The notes under the pieces: model-generated
Seen by the model: the letters and a program-made list of their open reading frames with translations, nothing else
Told to the model about the DNA's origin: nothing
Database searches by the model: none
IMG/VR virus record: IMGVR_UViG_3300018476_000021
Coordinates: 1 to 40,281 of that record
Reading direction: 5' to 3' (one strand)
DNA: 40,281 nucleotides
Source of the DNA: a virus
Made by a program: the position numbers and the translations under genes
Shown: one piece after another, positions 3,066-40,281 of the stretch
Layout of the letters: each line of letters starts with the position of its first letter
Position numbering within the stretch: position 1 is the first letter of the stretch

Positions 3066-3095
3066 ATCGTACCCCCGCGCGGGACCGGCTGTCAA
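3066..3095 (-). promoter_or_regulatory. Leftward promoter inside the end of the RecB-like gene
   Basis: On the minus strand TTGACA (3095-3090), 18 bp and TACGAT (3071-3066). It would drive the DUF7218-like, Cys-rich and polymerase genes independently of the upstream regulator region. Confidence 0.65.
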
Positions 3096-3958
3096 TGCCG
3101 AGTGAAGTCCTGCCGGAAATCGAGATCCTTGAGCATGACCCGCACACGTTCGGGTTCAGTCCCCCTGCCAAGGAGACAGGGCGAGGTGAAGCCGCACTTC
3201 CACTTACAGGTGTCCGGGTTGGGGTGCCTCGGCGTCACCTGGGTCTCAGCTAGATCCAAGTTCAGGTACGCGGCGTGAATATCGAGCGCGGTCGAGCGGA
3301 CCTCCTCGGCCATGGTCGCCAGCTCTTGGTCGGTGCGCACCATCTTGATTCGGCAGAAGCGCTCCTCCAGCGGCATGTGTCCCTTGTTGCGCTGAGTGCG
3401 CGCCGCGTTGTGGACGATCCCGAATACCCGCATATCCGGGTTGTATTCGTTGATGATCCACTGGTAGAGCGCGAACTGATCGTCGAGATCAGTCTCCTTC
3501 TCTTTCGGCAGATTTTGGCCGCTCTTGTGGTCCCAAAGCCAGTACTGCCCGTGGCGGTCCTCGACCGAGAGATCGATCCGGCACTTGATGTTGATAAGTC
3601 CCTCGATTAGGGGAACTTCCATCTTCAGCTCGACGTCGACGACGCGCCACTCCTGATCGGCCTGCCACATCTGGACATAGCCGGTGTACATCCAGCGAAT
3701 CAGCTCGACGATTTCCTCGGGGGTTCCGGTGTGCTCTCCCACCGCGTCGAGATACTTATCCACATTGTCCATCGCGATCCCAAGTGAACCCGTATTTCGA
3801 AGGATGCGATAGTGGACTTCGAGGATGGAGTGCCAAAGAGATCCCTTGGCCAAAGCGGGCGAGACGGTAGGCTCGACCCATCGCTCGGCGTAGGCCAGTC
3901 GCCACTTATAGGGACACTGTCGCCAGGCATCGATTTCACTCCAGCTGATCGTAATCAC
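3092..3958 (-). CDS. RecB/Cas4-like PD-(D/E)XK nuclease with Fe-S cysteines
   Basis: This 288-aa protein begins with SWSEIDAWRQCPYKWRLAY, the usual start of Cas4/RecB-family (PDDEXK_1) nucleases. It has H43 in AKGSLWH, D129 in IKCRID, and D143/K145 in LWDHKSG as the catalytic D-(D/E)XK set. C15 with C near 251, 255 and 261 (TCKWKCGFTSPC) matches a 4Fe-4S cluster. The expected role is end-processing in phage recombination or replication, together with the Sak4-like ATPase. The GTG start overlaps the upstream stop (GTGA); longer starts would run further into the upstream gene. Confidence 0.9.
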   Translation of the reverse strand: MITISWSEIDAWRQCPYKWRLAYAERWVEPTVSPALAKGSLWHSILEVHYRILRNTGSLGIAMDNVDKYLDAVGEHTGTPEEIVELIRWMYTGYVQMWQADQEWRVVDVELKMEVPLIEGLINIKCRIDLSVEDRHGQYWLWDHKSGQNLPKEKETDLDDQFALYQWIINEYNPDMRVFGIVHNAARTQRNKGHMPLEERFCRIKMVRTDQELATMAEEVRSTALDIHAAYLNLDLAETQVTPRHPNPDTCKWKCGFTSPCLLGRGTEPERVRVMLKDLDFRQDFTRH

Positions 3959-4170
3959 CGGGCGCTCAGCGCCCCCATCGCACGCAAGAGGGACATTGCC
4001 TCTAGCTGGGCGTCGGAAGCTTTCCACTCGGGAAGAGTGACAACGGCGCAGTGGTAGTAACCGCGCACGTCATCGGAGGTGTGTACGTACCTCCAGACGT
4101 GACGGCTGATCTTGTAGCCGCGAGCCCAGTGTTCGGCCTCGCTCAATCCGTTGGCAAATATGAGCATCAT
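3955..4170 (-). CDS. Hypothetical protein (71 aa)
   Basis: The product starts MMLIFANGLSEAEHWARGYK, and I do not recognise it. A good ribosome site (AGGAG) precedes the ATG. Its stop overlaps the nuclease start, indicating coupling within the leftward operon. Confidence 0.75.
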   Translation of the reverse strand: MMLIFANGLSEAEHWARGYKISRHVWRYVHTSDDVRGYYHCAVVTLPEWKASDAQLEAMSLLRAMGALSAR

Positions 4171-7446: not shown

Positions 7447-9603
7447 ATGCTTGAGCACGCGATAGCCAGAGCGCTCGAAGGATGGCGGGTATTCCCGCTG
7501 GCGCCTGGCAGTAAAACCCGACCCCTGATCAGGGATTGGCCGAATCGCGCCACGACCGACGTGGATCTCATCCGCGAATGGTGGTTCGAGTGGCCACACG
7601 CCAACATCGGTGGACTGTGCGGCGAGGATTGGCTCGTCATCGACATCGACATCCGCGACGAGAAGCGCGGAGCCGAATCTCTGGAGCGGTTACAAGCCGA
7701 CTACGACGACCTCATCCCGACCCGTGAGCACAGCACCCCGTCGGGCGGTTGGCACTACGTGTATCGGAAGCCCAGCAACTGGGGAACCAGCGACCACAAA
7801 ATCCAGGACTTTGCCGGTTACGACAACATCGATGTCCAGGTTGGTGGAGCCTACGTGGTACTGCCACCCAGCCGAACCGATGAGGGTGCATACACAGTCC
7901 GCAACAACCGCCAACCCGTCGAAGGCCCACTCTGGCTAGTCCAGGCGCGAAATGGAGCAGTCGGCAAGGGTGCGCATTCGCCGAAGGCAGCGATCGCCAA
8001 TCTCGGCCAGGTGATGCACAAGCGCGACAACCAGCTTTATCGAATGGCGTCGCTGCTCCGACGCGAAGGCCACTCGTTCGAGTACGTGGTCGAGCAGCTC
8101 ACCACGGCTGCGGCCTCACCGCTGGCCTACCCGATGCACGGTCCCAAGCCGGAGCACGATATTAATCGAATCGTGAAGTCAGCGTTCCGGCATCCGGCCG
8201 ACCTGTTCTCGGACTCTAGCGCTGTGGTCAATAACGATCTCAACAACGGCTGGCTGATTGCCGCGATCGCGGGAGGCGAACTACTCTGGAATGACCGGCG
8301 AGGCGCTTGGTACGAGTGGACCGGCAATCGATGGAAGATGAGCGGTTATCGGCTACGTCTGCTGACGGGAGAGGCGATCGAGGCCCTGTGGTCCGCCTGG
8401 CATTTGAGCGACAGCGAAAGCGAGGCCAAGGCGATCTCTAAGCGAGTGGACACGCTCAGCACCTGGACCACTCTAAGGGGAGCCTGGGAGTTTCTCAAGG
8501 GTGAGGTATGGGTCGAGAACGAAGACTTTGATGCGGACCGGTACCTGCTCAACTGCCCGAACGGGACGGTGGATCTGACGACGGGTCTGCTGAGGGAGCA
8601 CCGGCCGCTAGACCGAATCACTCACGTGACCCGAACGGACTACGATCCATCAGCCGATATGAGCGAGTGGGAGGAATTCGTCCTCTGGTGCGGCAAGGGC
8701 GACGTCGAGTGGGCGCGCTGGCTGCAGATCGCGCTCGGTCAGGCGATGATCGGCAAGGTGGACGAGAACATCATGGCATTCCTGTTCGGCGGAGGCGCCA
8801 ACGGGAAGTCGGCCATGATGAGCGCGATTCTGGCTACCATTGGCGACTATGGGTACGAGGCTCCGGTCGAGCTGATCGTCAGCCGAGGTGTGGGCGGCGG
8901 GATCCACGACGAGTACCTGGTCGCGCTCGAAGGACGCCGACTGGTAGTCTGTCCCGAACCGGCGCGAGGCACTCACTGGAACGATGGCCGACTCAAAGCG
9001 ATCACGGGTGGGGACGGTATCCCATGTCGACCGAACTACGGCAAGCCGATGATCGTCACCCCGAAGTTCCTGCTCGTGGTCCACGGCAACAATCGTCCCG
9101 AGGTGCGGGACCGAAGCGACGGCTTCAACCGGAGGATGCGGCTGGTGCCGTTCGACAACCGGGTGCCAGACGCGGTGCGCAACACCGGCATGGCGGAGGT
9201 GCTCGCGGGTCCGGGAGTACTGCGCTGGCTGGTCGAGGGAGCTCGACAGTATCTTGAATCGCGCTTCTTGCCAGTGAGTGCGCGGATTGAGGGAGGCACT
9301 AAGCAGTACCTAAGGGAATCCAACCAGTTGGGACGATTTATCGAAGAGTGTCTGGCCGTAGGGCCGGGTCTCTGGTCGGCTTCTTCGGACATCTACGCCG
9401 TCTATCGGAGCTGGTGCCACGCCAACGGGGAACGATTCATGGAGACGTCGCAGGCCCTGTTTGAGCAGCTCAGACTGGCTCTGCAGCACGGTGACGGAGG
9501 ATCCGTCGTCAAAGCCCACACCCGTGAGCGGGGCGGCATGAGACAGCGCGGATGGGACGGCGTGGAGATCACCTGGGTCACGACGACGGAGGTACCAATT
9601 TAA
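7447..9603 (+). CDS. Bifunctional primase-polymerase / SF3 (D5/P4-type) helicase
   Basis: This is a 718-aa fusion. The N-terminal prim-pol domain has the catalytic VIDIDI (D66, D68) and a later GGWHYVY segment. The central D5_N region leads to an SF3 helicase with Walker A FGGGANGKS near 446-454, and motif C-like KFLLVVHGNN followed by RMRLVPF. Such proteins prime and unwind at phage origins. Together with the polymerase, the Sak4-like ATPase and the adjacent non-coding island, it completes a self-contained replisome core. Confidence 0.93.
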   Translation: MLEHAIARALEGWRVFPLAPGSKTRPLIRDWPNRATTDVDLIREWWFEWPHANIGGLCGEDWLVIDIDIRDEKRGAESLERLQADYDDLIPTREHSTPSGGWHYVYRKPSNWGTSDHKIQDFAGYDNIDVQVGGAYVVLPPSRTDEGAYTVRNNRQPVEGPLWLVQARNGAVGKGAHSPKAAIANLGQVMHKRDNQLYRMASLLRREGHSFEYVVEQLTTAAASPLAYPMHGPKPEHDINRIVKSAFRHPADLFSDSSAVVNNDLNNGWLIAAIAGGELLWNDRRGAWYEWTGNRWKMSGYRLRLLTGEAIEALWSAWHLSDSESEAKAISKRVDTLSTWTTLRGAWEFLKGEVWVENEDFDADRYLLNCPNGTVDLTTGLLREHRPLDRITHVTRTDYDPSADMSEWEEFVLWCGKGDVEWARWLQIALGQAMIGKVDENIMAFLFGGGANGKSAMMSAILATIGDYGYEAPVELIVSRGVGGGIHDEYLVALEGRRLVVCPEPARGTHWNDGRLKAITGGDGIPCRPNYGKPMIVTPKFLLVVHGNNRPEVRDRSDGFNRRMRLVPFDNRVPDAVRNTGMAEVLAGPGVLRWLVEGARQYLESRFLPVSARIEGGTKQYLRESNQLGRFIEECLAVGPGLWSASSDIYAVYRSWCHANGERFMETSQALFEQLRLALQHGDGGSVVKAHTRERGGMRQRGWDGVEITWVTTTEVPI

Positions 9604-36425: not shown

Positions 36426-37241
36426 CTAGGCGCCCGTGCTGCCGAATCCCAGCGCGCCCCGCGCGGTTATCCCGGGGGTCACATCGACGTCCCAAACCGG
36501 CACGGGTGTGATCGCGGGCATCAGGATCAGCTGACCGAGCCGGTCGCCCACCCTGACGTCGTGGGTCGCCCCGCCCACGTTCCAGATCCCAACGAACAGT
36601 TCGCCCCGGAAGCTGGGATCGATCACGCCGGGCGTCACCCACAACCGGTGCTTGCGCATCGTCGACGAGCGCGATGTGATGTAGCCCCACATTCCGGGCG
36701 GGAGATTGCAGATGACCCCGGCGGGCACGTCACGGAACTGCATCACAGGGACCCGCATCGGCTCCGAGGCGAACAGGTCCAGCCCCACATCGTCACTGAA
36801 TCCGCGCCTGGGCAGCTCGGCGTTGGCTCCAGTCCGCACGAACCCGATCTCGCCCTTGTTTGGCGCGTGGCGCAGGTCCTCGTTCAGCACCTTCACCGCG
36901 TCGGCCGCGCTATCCGTGACGTACGCGCCCCGCGCCGCGAAACCCTGGATGGCCACCGATCGGTCGATATCGGTGACGATCGCGGTCGGGATCCCGTGGG
37001 ATAGAGCGTGTTCGATCTCGGCTGGCACCCCGATCGTGGGAACGCCCACCGGGAGGAAGGCGAGCAGTCCGTCGATGGTGGTCATTACCGCGCGGTTGCA
37101 GTCGTCCAGGTTGGGTCCGAACGGTCCGGCGAATGCCTGACTCGGCCGGTAAAGGGTCCAGTCCTCGGGCGCCCGCCAGGTGTGCTGGATACGGTTAGGC
37201 GACTGGTCCATCGGCTCAGCGACGTAAACAAGGTAGCTCAT
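36426..37241 (-). CDS. dut: Fusion: deoxyribosyltransferase-like domain plus dUTPase
   Basis: This 271-aa protein has two domains. Residues 1-115 resemble nucleoside 2-deoxyribosyltransferases: YVAEPMDQ, D57 in TTIDGLLAFL and PTIGVPAEIEHALSHGIPTA with the catalytic-type Glu. Residues about 130-271 are a trimeric dUTPase with all five motifs: DDVGLDLFA, SRSS, GVIDPSFRGELFVGIWN, GDRLGQLIL and GALGFGSTG. It hydrolyses dUTP to dUMP; the first domain may handle base exchange or degrade N-glycosides. The ATG overlaps the purB stop. Confidence 0.9.
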   Translation of the reverse strand: MSYLVYVAEPMDQSPNRIQHTWRAPEDWTLYRPSQAFAGPFGPNLDDCNRAVMTTIDGLLAFLPVGVPTIGVPAEIEHALSHGIPTAIVTDIDRSVAIQGFAARGAYVTDSAADAVKVLNEDLRHAPNKGEIGFVRTGANAELPRRGFSDDVGLDLFASEPMRVPVMQFRDVPAGVICNLPPGMWGYITSRSSTMRKHRLWVTPGVIDPSFRGELFVGIWNVGGATHDVRVGDRLGQLILMPAITPVPVWDVDVTPGITARGALGFGSTGA

Positions 37242-38329
37242 CCCTGCAGCCCCTTGTAAATGTCGGCCCAGGCGTCCGGGTTCGCCGATTGCTCGGCTAG
37301 CCAGCGATCCCAGGTACCCGCGTGCTCGATGTGGGCTTGCATTCGATCCGGCGCGACCACGAGATGGGCAACTATATCAATAGCCTCACGTAGTGCAAAG
37401 CCAGTAAGCCCGGTGACAAGTGGTAGACAGATCCTCTCGACAGAACTATGACTGATGTCGTGCTCGCCCCACCAACCTGTAGATTCGGCCAAGGCGCCCA
37501 CCTGAGCGCGCACCACGCGAGCCAGACCGCATATCCTCTCTGAGCGAACTGGATTTCGCTTATGCGGCATGGAAGTCGAACCCCACTGATCGGGCGCGAA
37601 CCATTCAGCCATCTCACCGTAGGTGGCTCCTAACCGCACCTGCAGAGCCAGATGCTCGACTGCTCCCATCAACCCGGCTACCGAGGCGGCCCAGCCGACT
37701 AAGCCTTGACGATCGTTAGCCTGGGCCTTCCGGTATCGTCCCGGCTGCAAGCCGAGCAGAGCCCCAAGTCGCACGGGGTCATGCACTCGGGCGTCGCCGA
37801 TGGGCCCACCGAGTACAATCTCGGTGGCGGGTCCAGTTGCACCAGCCAGCAGTTCAGCCGCCTTCGCCACGCGATCGCCCCATATACCAACTTGGCGCCC
37901 AAAAGCGTCCGGCTCAGCGAATACACCGTGCGTTCGAGCAGCGCGTGGCGTATCGGCATGTTGCACCCCCAGCAGCTCCAGTGATTGGGTTAGAAGACGA
38001 GCCTCGCGGCACAGGCACTCGGATACTTCCGACACAGCCAGGGCTTGACCCGCGTCCACAAGATCAGATGATGAAAGACCCCAGTGCGCAAGCGGAACGC
38101 CGCGCACCTCCCGCATCCAACGGACAAAAGCTCCCACGTCGTGACGGGTGATAGTTTCATACTTGGCGATTTGCGCGAGATCATGCGAATCGAGTTCCTC
38201 ACCTAGAGCCTTCGCGGTCGGCGCGTCACCCGCTGCCGTCGAGGCCGCCCATTCCACCCGTAGCCAGTAGGCGTACTTTCCCTGTGGCGACCAAACGTGA
38301 TCGATGACCGGGTGCGCGTATCGGTTCAC
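37238..38329 (-). CDS. purB: Adenylosuccinate lyase (PurB), phage-encoded
   Basis: This 363-aa member of the fumarase/aspartase superfamily has HWGLSSSD (H82), RTHG (H134, the general acid/base) and the signature GSTSMPHKRNP with the loop Ser near 253 and K257, then WGEHDISHSSVERI. Bacterial PurB is usually 430-475 aa, so the C-terminal domain is short here. In the Z pathway PurB cleaves N6-succino-2-amino-dAMP to dZMP and fumarate; most known Z phages borrow the host enzyme. GTG start overlapping the MazG-like stop. Confidence 0.92.
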   Translation of the reverse strand: MNRYAHPVIDHVWSPQGKYAYWLRVEWAASTAAGDAPTAKALGEELDSHDLAQIAKYETITRHDVGAFVRWMREVRGVPLAHWGLSSSDLVDAGQALAVSEVSECLCREARLLTQSLELLGVQHADTPRAARTHGVFAEPDAFGRQVGIWGDRVAKAAELLAGATGPATEIVLGGPIGDARVHDPVRLGALLGLQPGRYRKAQANDRQGLVGWAASVAGLMGAVEHLALQVRLGATYGEMAEWFAPDQWGSTSMPHKRNPVRSERICGLARVVRAQVGALAESTGWWGEHDISHSSVERICLPLVTGLTGFALREAIDIVAHLVVAPDRMQAHIEHAGTWDRWLAEQSANPDAWADIYKGLQG

Positions 38330-38631
38330 GGCCACTGGCCCGTCTCGCGGATACGCCGGACCATCATACCGTAGACGACAATATCGTGCCAAGTGTCGTC
38401 GCTGGGACGTCGGCCCCCACTAACCGCGCTGATGCAGCGAGCCAGCTTACCGAGCTGGTAGAACATGATGCCGATCTCGGCGTCGGACAGGATGTCCGGC
38501 CCGATTCCGATCAGCTCACGCAATGTGCGGCCAATGATCACTAGGTCGAGTGACCCGTACTCCTTGGCCTTGATCTCGGCGGCGTCGACGTCGTCTTTCG
38601 ACAAGTCGACCCACCATTCAGGCAGTCCCAT
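38326..38631 (-). CDS. MazG-like / DUF1599-like protein (MazZ candidate)
   Basis: This 101-aa helical protein has AAEIKAKEYGSLDLVIIG, a core DAEIGIMFYQLGKLARCISA and SDDTWHDIVVYGMMVRR. The acidic helices and the DDxxxD pattern fit MazG-like or nucleotide-modification-associated (DUF1599) proteins of phages. Between purZ and purB it is the candidate MazZ, which would convert dGTP to dGMP to feed PurZ. Sequence evidence alone is not decisive. Confidence 0.65.
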   Translation of the reverse strand: MGLPEWWVDLSKDDVDAAEIKAKEYGSLDLVIIGRTLRELIGIGPDILSDAEIGIMFYQLGKLARCISAVSGGRRPSDDTWHDIVVYGMMVRRIRETGQWP

Positions 38632-39658
38632 GGTTGACGCCCATCCTAACCTGTGTGTAAGGGCCAGTCCCGACCATATCGACGGGAAGGCCCAGTTCCT
38701 TCTCCCTTTGCTCCAGCCAAGCCCGTGATCCGTGGCTCAGCTGGGAGATTTCGGTTGCTCCGGCCACGTCGGGGAACAGGTGGTCGAGCATCGTGATCGC
38801 AATGCGGGTCGCCTGGCTGGGCGCACCATTGGCAGCGAGGGCTTCCATCGCCAGCTCGGGGTCCCATTCGCCCACCCGACGGACTCGTTTCGTCACGGTG
38901 GTGTACTCCTCGGGGAGGCCAAGCTCCTTCCAGGAAGTCTCGCCGTAGAGTGGCCCAGAATTGCCCGCGACCCGGATCGGGCGGGTGCGAAAGACGATCC
39001 ACACCTCCAACCGGTCGGCAGGCCATCGCCACGGAACCGCCCCAGCCTGCGCCATCATATCGATCGCCCGTGCGTCACCGGACGTGCAGAATGGGTACTG
39101 TCCCGCGTGCAGGCCCAGCCCCCAACCCTGGGTGCCTTCGATGATGACGTCGCGATCAACGGTGTAGCTGTCCTCGATCAGCTCGGTGACGGACACGGGG
39201 TTTAGGATGCCACCGGCGAGATCGGCTGTGCGCCAGATTCGATCGGCTCGCGCCGCACCGACACCCTTGGCCGTGGAGCCGAGCCGGTCGTTGAGGGTAC
39301 TGGCCACCTCCATCGCGATGTGGTTGTCGTCGAGCAATGTCGCCTGGGGATCGATGTGCAGGCGCGACGTGATGTCGTAGCCCGCTACCTCCAAATCGTT
39401 GATCTCCTTGAAGAGGACCTCGGCATTTACCTCGGATCCGGCCGCGAGGGCGAGGTGTGCGCGGGGATTGATGAAACCGACGGGCACGTGCCGCAGCTTC
39501 CATTCCGTCGCGTTCGCGTCGAATACCGTGTGCCCCGCGTTCGGTCCACCGACCCGGACAACGAGGGGCGTCTCCGATTCCAGCGCCAGGCGACCGGTAA
39601 TCGCCCCCTTAGCCTCCGAGCCAAACTGCCCTCCCACGACCACTTGTAGCCTGCTCAT
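38618..39658 (-). CDS. purZ: 2-aminoadenylosuccinate synthetase (PurZ)
   Basis: This 346-aa PurA-family enzyme starts VVVGGQFGSEAKGAITG. The catalytic Asp of PurA (in GDEGKGK) is Ser14 here, the residue that marks PurZ, which uses dGMP instead of IMP. GGPNAGHT (H43) and the Arg-rich loop KRVRRVGEWD for aspartate binding are kept. The enzyme condenses dGMP and Asp, with a nucleoside triphosphate, to N6-succino-2-amino-dAMP, the first committed step to 2-aminoadenine. The ATG overlaps the RuvC-like stop. Confidence 0.93.
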   Translation of the reverse strand: MSRLQVVVGGQFGSEAKGAITGRLALESETPLVVRVGGPNAGHTVFDANATEWKLRHVPVGFINPRAHLALAAGSEVNAEVLFKEINDLEVAGYDITSRLHIDPQATLLDDNHIAMEVASTLNDRLGSTAKGVGAARADRIWRTADLAGGILNPVSVTELIEDSYTVDRDVIIEGTQGWGLGLHAGQYPFCTSGDARAIDMMAQAGAVPWRWPADRLEVWIVFRTRPIRVAGNSGPLYGETSWKELGLPEEYTTVTKRVRRVGEWDPELAMEALAANGAPSQATRIAITMLDHLFPDVAGATEISQLSHGSRAWLEQREKELGLPVDMVGTGPYTQVRMGVNHGTA

Positions 39659-40110
39659 GCGTAACCCGCTCTCTGCATCTCCAGTTGGGAAACTATCCTA
39701 AGCCCGTGCGCCTCAGCATCCCGCGCGTGCTTGCCGTGACCTATCGACCGATGCAACCGCCCGGACAACTCTGGGTTCCGGTACACATCGTTCAGTTTGC
39801 TGGCCTGTGGCTTCTCGAACGGGATGTTGTGGCGTCGTGCGACGTGATGCAGCGCCCCGATGAGCTGGGGTGTGTACAGCTCGGAGTGCGACAACTGGGC
39901 GGCCATCCAGGGGTACAGGGTGAACCGCTCGACTACGAGCAGACCGATGACCCCGAATGTGGCTAGGTCGCATATCGTATCGACCACCTCATCCGGGGTC
40001 ATCTCAACAGCAGCGGAGCACTCCTCGTAGTCCCAGCTCGCGTAACCCACATGCTTGTCACCCGGGTCGATCGAGATCCAGAATTGGGGGAGAGCGCCCC
40101 GTCGCGGCAT
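39655..40110 (-). CDS. RuvC-like Holliday-junction resolvase
   Basis: This 151-aa RNase H-fold nuclease has ISIDPGDKHVGYA (D15), LLVVERF (E61) and GHGKHARDAEAHGL (D131), the D-E-D set of RuvC-type resolvases. It probably resolves branched phage DNA before packaging. AGGAG before the ATG. It lies between the AMIN-like gene and purZ. Confidence 0.88.
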   Translation of the reverse strand: MPRRGALPQFWISIDPGDKHVGYASWDYEECSAAVEMTPDEVVDTICDLATFGVIGLLVVERFTLYPWMAAQLSHSELYTPQLIGALHHVARRHNIPFEKPQASKLNDVYRNPELSGRLHRSIGHGKHARDAEAHGLRIVSQLEMQRAGYA

Positions 40111-40127: not shown

Positions 40128-40281
40128 TCACCAATGGTTGGCGACGTCAATCACGAGGCGGTTCGGCGCGGTGAGAGTGAACACGCGGAATGGGAGTCGA
40201 GCCCTGACGCCCAGACCATACACAGTCACTGCTTCGAACGTACCTCCATACACCACGCTTCGGAACGTGGAGAATCCGGCC
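40128..40281 (-). CDS. Secreted AMIN-like domain protein, C-terminal part
   Basis: This is the continuation of the gene at 464-1. From the junction the frame runs RLVIDVANHW and ends at TGA 40130-40128. Bases 40159-40281 duplicate the left end. The RuvC-like start is 18 bases further on. Confidence 0.85.
   Translation of the reverse strand, partial: AGFSTFRSVVYGGTFEAVTVYGLGVRARLPFRVFTLTAPNRLVIDVANHW
40159..40281. repeat. Terminal direct repeat, right copy
   Basis: Exact copy of bases 1-123; see the left copy. It should be removed when the genome is circularised. Confidence 0.95.

Follow-up and report, generated by a model that had tools for sequence, protein, structure and literature searches.

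The IMG/VR viral record IMGVR_UViG_3300018476_000021 comprises 40,281 bases, and this whole stretch, referred to as the window, carries a minus-strand operon predicted to supply the enzymes for DNA in which adenine is replaced by 2-aminoadenine (Z). An exact direct repeat of 123 base pairs (bp) is found at both ends (1–123 = 40159–40281), and the record therefore closes as a 40,158-bp circle, i.e., it is a closed circle or a permuted genome. The minus-strand genes are arranged in the order exonuclease (3092–4027), a hypothetical protein of 139 amino acids (aa), family A DNA polymerase (PolA; 454–2430; PF00476, 142 bits), AMIN-like protein, RuvC-like Holliday-junction resolvase (39655–40110; 151 aa), PurZ (38618–39658; 346 aa), a 101-aa protein (38326–38631), PurB-like adenylosuccinate lyase (37238–38329; ~363 aa), and a deoxyribosyltransferase-dUTPase fusion (36426–37241). 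The AMIN-like gene runs over the circular join, its first part lying at 3–464 and its last part, by circular reconstruction, at 40128–40281, of which 40159–40281 duplicates 1–123. From PolA onward, adjacent genes overlap by 4–14 nucleotides (nt) (PolA stop/AMIN-like start, 11 nt; RuvC-like/PurZ, ATGA; PurZ/101-aa gene, 14 nt; 101-aa gene/PurB, GTGA; PurB/fusion, ATGA), except for a 17-nt gap between the AMIN-like end and the RuvC-like start, and all frames of the Z operon genes are intact. An earlier interpretation made from the letters alone (the sequence-only reading) had proposed a single leftward operon with ATGA/GTGA junctions, and this holds, all the named genes being on the minus strand; the physical link to PolA over the contig join, claimed at the same time, is established by the 123-bp repeat and the 11-nt overlap. 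The identical gene order is found, within contig reach, in approximately 17 IMG/VR contigs (PurZ 69–88% identical), and the operon is therefore a conserved unit. A nucleotide search returned no close relatives in phage records, and no tRNA genes were found in the genome.

The window PurZ, a putative succino-2-amino-deoxyadenylate synthase, scores 308.2 bits against the NCBIfam PurZ model (NF038379), above the curated cutoff of 300, and falls under the cutoff for every PurA model of NCBIfam; the profile search suggested earlier for distinguishing PurZ from PurA thus returns PurZ. Ser occupies the position of the essential Asp13 of PurA, within the motif GSEAKG, and the closest solved structure (E = 8.6e-85) is 7VF6, namely PurZ0 from Gordonia phage Archimedes (PMC12884076). 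Identity amounts to 45–53% with PurZ0 of Gordonia, Streptomyces, Microbacterium, Curtobacterium, and Arthrobacter phages and to ~28–30% with PurZ of the phiVC8/S-2L type. In the phylogenetic tree, PurZ is split from PurA (represented by two sequences) with support of 100/99, and PurZ0 forms one clade in 16% of bootstrap trees because the long PurZ branch joins within PurZ0. By similarity, the window enzyme is a PurZ of the PurZ0 type, PurZ0 monophyly not being recovered. The earlier assignment to PurZ rather than PurA stands, its tree placement being outside the two PurA sequences, and the label is refined to the PurZ0 type.

No match to DatZ was detected in the genome with queries from VP2 and S-2L, the VP2 query retrieving, as a control, the DatZ of S-2L and Acinetobacter, and the absence of DatZ noted previously is upheld. 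By contrast, the suggestion that deoxyadenosine triphosphate (dATP) is excluded by another route, such as polymerase choice or a MazG-like enzyme, gives way to a published one: the transferase-dUTPase fusion matches the characterized DmtZ-DutZ, and no unknown route is needed. In phages Wayne and Ghobes, DmtZ-DutZ converts dATP to deoxyadenosine monophosphate (dAMP) and further to adenine, and the deoxyribose-phosphate is transferable onto Z (Poubanne et al., 2026, PMC12884076). DmtZ and DutZ are fused in Wayne (PMC12884076), as in the window phage. Y6, D12, and E103 mutants of Ghobes DmtZ lack dAMP hydrolysis, and mutation of Y6, D12, N77, or E103 abolishes or strongly lowers activity (PMC12884076). 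The window fusion (NDT-like domain at residues ~1–125 and dUTPase-like domain at ~133–271) keeps DmtZ residues Y6, D12, P57, N77, and E103 as Y6, D12, P33, N49, and E75; Y6, D12, P57, and E103 are invariant in all 77 aligned sequences and N77 is present in 74. Pfam detects only dUTPase in the fusion (PF00692, E = 4e-20), and this domain is assigned to DutZ by its fusion to DmtZ within a PurZ0 genome. Motif 2 reads RSS[T/S/A] in 70/70 DutZ sequences covering it, as opposed to RSG in the dUTPase of Salmonella phage 9NA. Among the matches listed, the best full-length counterparts of the fusion in cultured phages are all from PurZ0 phages. Within the locus DNA covered, DutZ occurs without detectable DmtZ at PurZ0 loci L055, L063, L090, and L095, and DmtZ without detectable DutZ at L079, L087, and L094.

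The PurB open reading frame as listed opens at TTG 38392, and relatives point to GTG 38329 or 38335 (363–365 aa), one of which is probably the true start. The putative lyase lacks a C-terminal region present in sampled cellular PurB (~430 aa); its catalytic residues H63, T133-H134, S251, K257, and N259 are invariant in the alignment (motifs RTHG and GSTSMPHKRNP), and its best solved-structure matches are adenylosuccinate lyases (E = 1e-44), in agreement with the previous proposal that the operon has its own PurB. Among 82 PurZ0 loci, PurB is visible in 31 within the DNA covered, 18 of them with a window-like operon and the others with PurB upstream, downstream, or divergent; at L059, L081, and L086 it lies divergent and immediately upstream of purZ0, unlike in the window operon. 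Annotated PurB-like genes are likewise present in the PurZ0 phages of Gordonia and Streptomyces, at other sites in their genomes. The lyase step is given to host enzymes in PMC12884076 and PMC12783734, and PurB is nowhere mentioned in PMC12884076, so a phage-dedicated lyase for Z synthesis is a plausible addition to the route. Recent acquisition of PurB from a host was considered and rejected: none of the phage PurBs groups within the cellular clade as sampled, and the approximately unbiased test allows all of them to form one clade (p-AU 0.61), in a tree that is weak, with long branches and cellular sequences picked by similarity.

The 101-aa protein belongs to a family whose domain directly follows purZ0 in 82/82 PurZ0 loci examined. 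A reverse search with a 10-row subset alignment of the family found PurZ in 68 of 70 loci, the remaining two being truncated in this gene where the contig stops; the two locus sets partly coincide and cannot be counted as independent. The family occurs in 31 cultured-phage records (Microbacterium 18, Gordonia 6, Streptomyces 5, Curtobacterium 1, and Micrococcus 1), whose host genera and counts agree with those of the PurZ0 phages among the matches listed. No copy is detectable in Arthrobacter phages; in Arthrobacter phage Wayne the slot after purZ0 holds gp51 (L010:12627-13223), a DUF5664 protein and an apparent replacement. At L007:15771-16334, L008:11618-12565, and L018:1671-3023 the domain forms the C-terminal part of proteins of 187, 315, and 450 aa with variable N-terminal extensions. 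The AlphaFold2 model consists of four helices with a predicted local distance difference test (pLDDT) score of 91.5, and ten residues are invariant in the family (K21, Y25, G34, E52, K62, R65, D79, D83, Y87, and R95). Among viral models (BFVD), Foldseek yields seven clear relatives: two are from Gordonia phages Archimedes and Ghobes, three agree in length with proteins of Keanu, PermaG, and Galactica, and two come from uncultured phages. Below these are DUF6378 and "nucleotide modification associated" proteins (E = 0.08–1, probability up to 0.99), and a weak profile alignment pairs the pattern K-x2-R ... D-x3-D-x3-Y of the family with that of DUF6378, which we take from its motifs to be MazG-like. 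The label "MazG-like" given in the sequence-only reading finds no database family support: the protein has no family in Pfam, PHROGs, or NCBIfam, and Pfam searched up to E = 10 with ten proteins, seven of them from this family, returned no significant family for the seven. Neither MazZ (PF04447) nor DUF5664 (PF18909) was matched by the protein at E values of up to 10 or by the genome at E values of up to 1. A shortened DUF5664 was ruled out, Wayne gp51 not being alignable over the conserved motif. The protein, which does not appear in the PurZ0 scheme given in the main text of PMC12884076, is most likely a distant MazG-type pyrophosphohydrolase supplying deoxyguanosine monophosphate (dGMP) to PurZ0.

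The strongest cultured relatives of PolA among the matches listed are from PurZ0 phages (194–281 bits), other phages scoring ~100 bits or less, and all 28 PurZ0-phage polymerases, including that of the window, form one clade (Shimodaira–Hasegawa-like approximate likelihood ratio test, 100) when six polymerases of non-Z phages and two of the phiVC8-like kind are included in the tree for comparison. A PrimPol-type primase (7447–9603, plus strand) accompanies PolA, so that two enzymes may face the choice between dATP and the triphosphate of Z (dZTP). Together with a Sak4-like annealing protein and the exonuclease, it makes up a replication module resembling that of Ghobes. The RuvC-like protein (phrog_5202) is modeled by AlphaFold2 with pLDDT 90.5, and its best Foldseek matches are Thermus thermophilus RuvC (E = 2.2e-6, template modeling score 0.66), confirming the identity (RNase H-like fold) at the level of the predicted fold. 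The AMIN-like protein (PF24837, E = 1.2e-29; 164 aa as rebuilt across the join) has a hydrophobic, signal-like N-terminal stretch and looks secreted; its position between PolA and RuvC, inside the nucleotide/replication operon, is preserved across the clade of the window, and it has no evident role in Z synthesis.

It is highly likely that the window holds a Z-DNA operon of the PurZ0 type, and Z very probably takes the place of adenine in the phage DNA. As judged from the genes, the set of enzymes appears full, with intact catalytic residues, translational coupling, and a position beside the replication genes; the PurZ score, the conserved DmtZ and PurB catalytic residues, and the conserved gene order bear out the Z-biosynthesis operon of the sequence-only reading. 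By analogy with characterized relatives, PurZ0 would condense dGMP and aspartate to succino-2-amino-dAMP, from which the phage PurB would release fumarate to give the monophosphate dZMP, a step usually performed by the host, and host kinases would form dZTP. DutZ would cut dATP to dAMP and, more slowly, deoxyguanosine triphosphate (dGTP) to dGMP, and DmtZ would either break dAMP to adenine or pass its deoxyribose-phosphate to free Z base; the competitor dATP would thereby be removed and Z recycled, standing in for DatZ. In the least certain step, the 101-aa partner, as a small MazG/DUF6378-like pyrophosphohydrolase, would give dGMP to PurZ0. Finally, PolA and the PrimPol-type primase would copy the Z-rich pool; as PolA has Tyr in helix O (see below), keeping adenine out may depend on control of the pool more than on PolA itself.

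Several observations weigh against this interpretation. PurB scores 203 bits with TIGR00928, short of the cutoff of 326. The modeled lid Trp124 of DmtZ, which closes the site, is Val at window position 96; this Trp is present in 12 of the 77 sequences and hence does not define the DmtZ family at large. The alignment of the 101-aa family with DUF6378 by hhalign is weak (probability 36%; score 25.8, the highest of 30 column shuffles being 19.8), and no significant sequence or fold match to the protein was found in the PDB, E. coli MazG being among the weak fold hits. PolA scores 258.8 bits with the Wayne-like NCBIfam model DpoZ_2 (NF038381), under the cutoff of 350; the Galactica polymerase likewise reaches 202 bits, indicating that the cutoff misses PurZ0-phage members. 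Furthermore, the helix-O residue of PolA corresponding to phiVC8 F459 is Tyr495 and not Phe. The replacement of this Tyr by Phe459 is the only change common to both DpoZ clades (PMC8599892), and polymerase choice is therefore the less supported exclusion route; no single residue accounts for Z selectivity (PMC8599892), so a Tyr-type PolA poses a question rather than a verdict on selectivity. On its sequence, PolA is a member of the PurZ0-phage clade that departs from the DpoZ enzymes in both cutoff and Phe. Tyr is found in the clade of the window, in Streptomyces phages, and in several other lineages, and Phe in Wayne, Ghobes, PermaG, and relatives. Tyr-type polymerases were seen in the window and at L034, L055, L063, L076, L084, L088-L090, L092, and L095, and Phe-type ones at L073, L079, L082, L087, and L094.

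It is possible, though rather unlikely, that the pathway works and substitution is partial or unselective, with a Tyr-type PolA that does not discriminate between dATP and dZTP and an A/Z ratio that simply tracks the pool. The Tyr is retained throughout the polymerase clade of the window, Phe being derived once within the PurZ0-phage polymerases, and phage S-2L, according to PMC8065100 and PMC8599892, has an unselective PrimPol and depends on dATP removal. However, selectivity is not explained by any one residue (PMC8599892), PolA shares its clade with selective Wayne-like enzymes, and S-2L reaches full substitution with no selective polymerase, indicating that pool control alone can suffice. 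Full-length matches to PurZ0 phages among those listed, conserved DmtZ-specific Asp12 and Pro57, and translational coupling to PurB and PurZ make it improbable that the fusion is an ordinary dUTPase with a salvage transferase for thymidine triphosphate supply and unrelated to adenine exclusion, even though Pfam shows dUTPase only and Wayne DmtZ-DutZ has its highest apparent turnover number (kcat) on deoxyuridine triphosphate (PMC12884076). More improbable still is an archaeal-type PurA acting with PurB in ordinary adenine synthesis within a purine-supply operon: the window PurZ does score higher with the archaeal-type PurA model (264.5 bits) than the enzymes of Ghobes (172) and Wayne (189), and a PurB partner lies beside it, but the PurZ model exceeds its cutoff at 308 bits, Ser replaces the catalytic Asp, identity to PurZ0, including the relative with the solved structure 7VF6, is 45–53%, and the tree separates it from the two PurA rows.

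The core of the PurZ0-type Z-DNA operon is familiar from known systems, and three features are previously unreported for the PurZ0 route: its own, translationally coupled lyase, the small partner protein found universally beside purZ0, and a Tyr-type polymerase without the residue change common to known Z-selective polymerases. The cassette is unusually complete, combining synthesis, its own lyase, competitor removal, and polymerase. As the Phe-type polymerases form one nested group with a single origin, the two types within one clade offer a natural experiment on the helix-O Phe in the choice between Z and A, and a putative dedicated phage lyase for succino-2-amino-dAMP can be set against host PurB as another. 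Attention is also drawn to the small protein strictly co-occurring with purZ0. We tentatively propose, at somewhat less than even confidence, that the 101-aa family is a new enzyme family in essentially all PurZ0 phages but the Arthrobacter group, making dGMP from dGTP or removing dATP, and that this family, in concert with PurB and DmtZ-DutZ, controls the nucleotide pool in such a way that a Z genome can be made by a PolA that is Tyr-type and possibly unselective.

The PurZ-DatZ-MazZ cluster of S-2L, phiVC8, and SH-Ab 15497 leads to the same end product with a homologous PurZ, whereas the window is without DatZ and MazZ and its PurZ is ~28–30% identical to theirs. Gordonia phages Ghobes and Archimedes share with the window PurZ0, a partner-domain protein directly after purZ0 (gp51, annotated as hypothetical), and their own PurB-like gene, although their DmtZ and DutZ genes are separate, PurB lies 6–8 kb off on the opposite strand, and PolA has Phe and exceeds the DpoZ_2 cutoff. 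Streptomyces phages Galactica, Hiyaa, and Keanu, with genomes of ~82 kb, a partner domain that ends a protein of 315–450 aa, and PurB ~5 kb downstream of purZ, differ in these respects but likewise have PurZ0, the partner domain, a fused DmtZ-DutZ, PurB, and a PolA that is Tyr-type in Galactica and Hiyaa. The gene set of Arthrobacter phage Wayne consists of PurZ0, DUF5664-1, a DmtZ-DutZ fusion, and a Wayne-like DpoZ (PMC12884076). Relative to Wayne, the window has PurB in the operon and the 101-aa partner in the slot of DUF5664 after purZ0, keeps the helix-O Tyr in PolA, and has Val for the lid Trp of DmtZ; both have PurZ0 with the Ser13 equivalent, a fused DmtZ-DutZ with identical catalytic residues, PolA of one clade, a PrimPol-type primase, and no DatZ.

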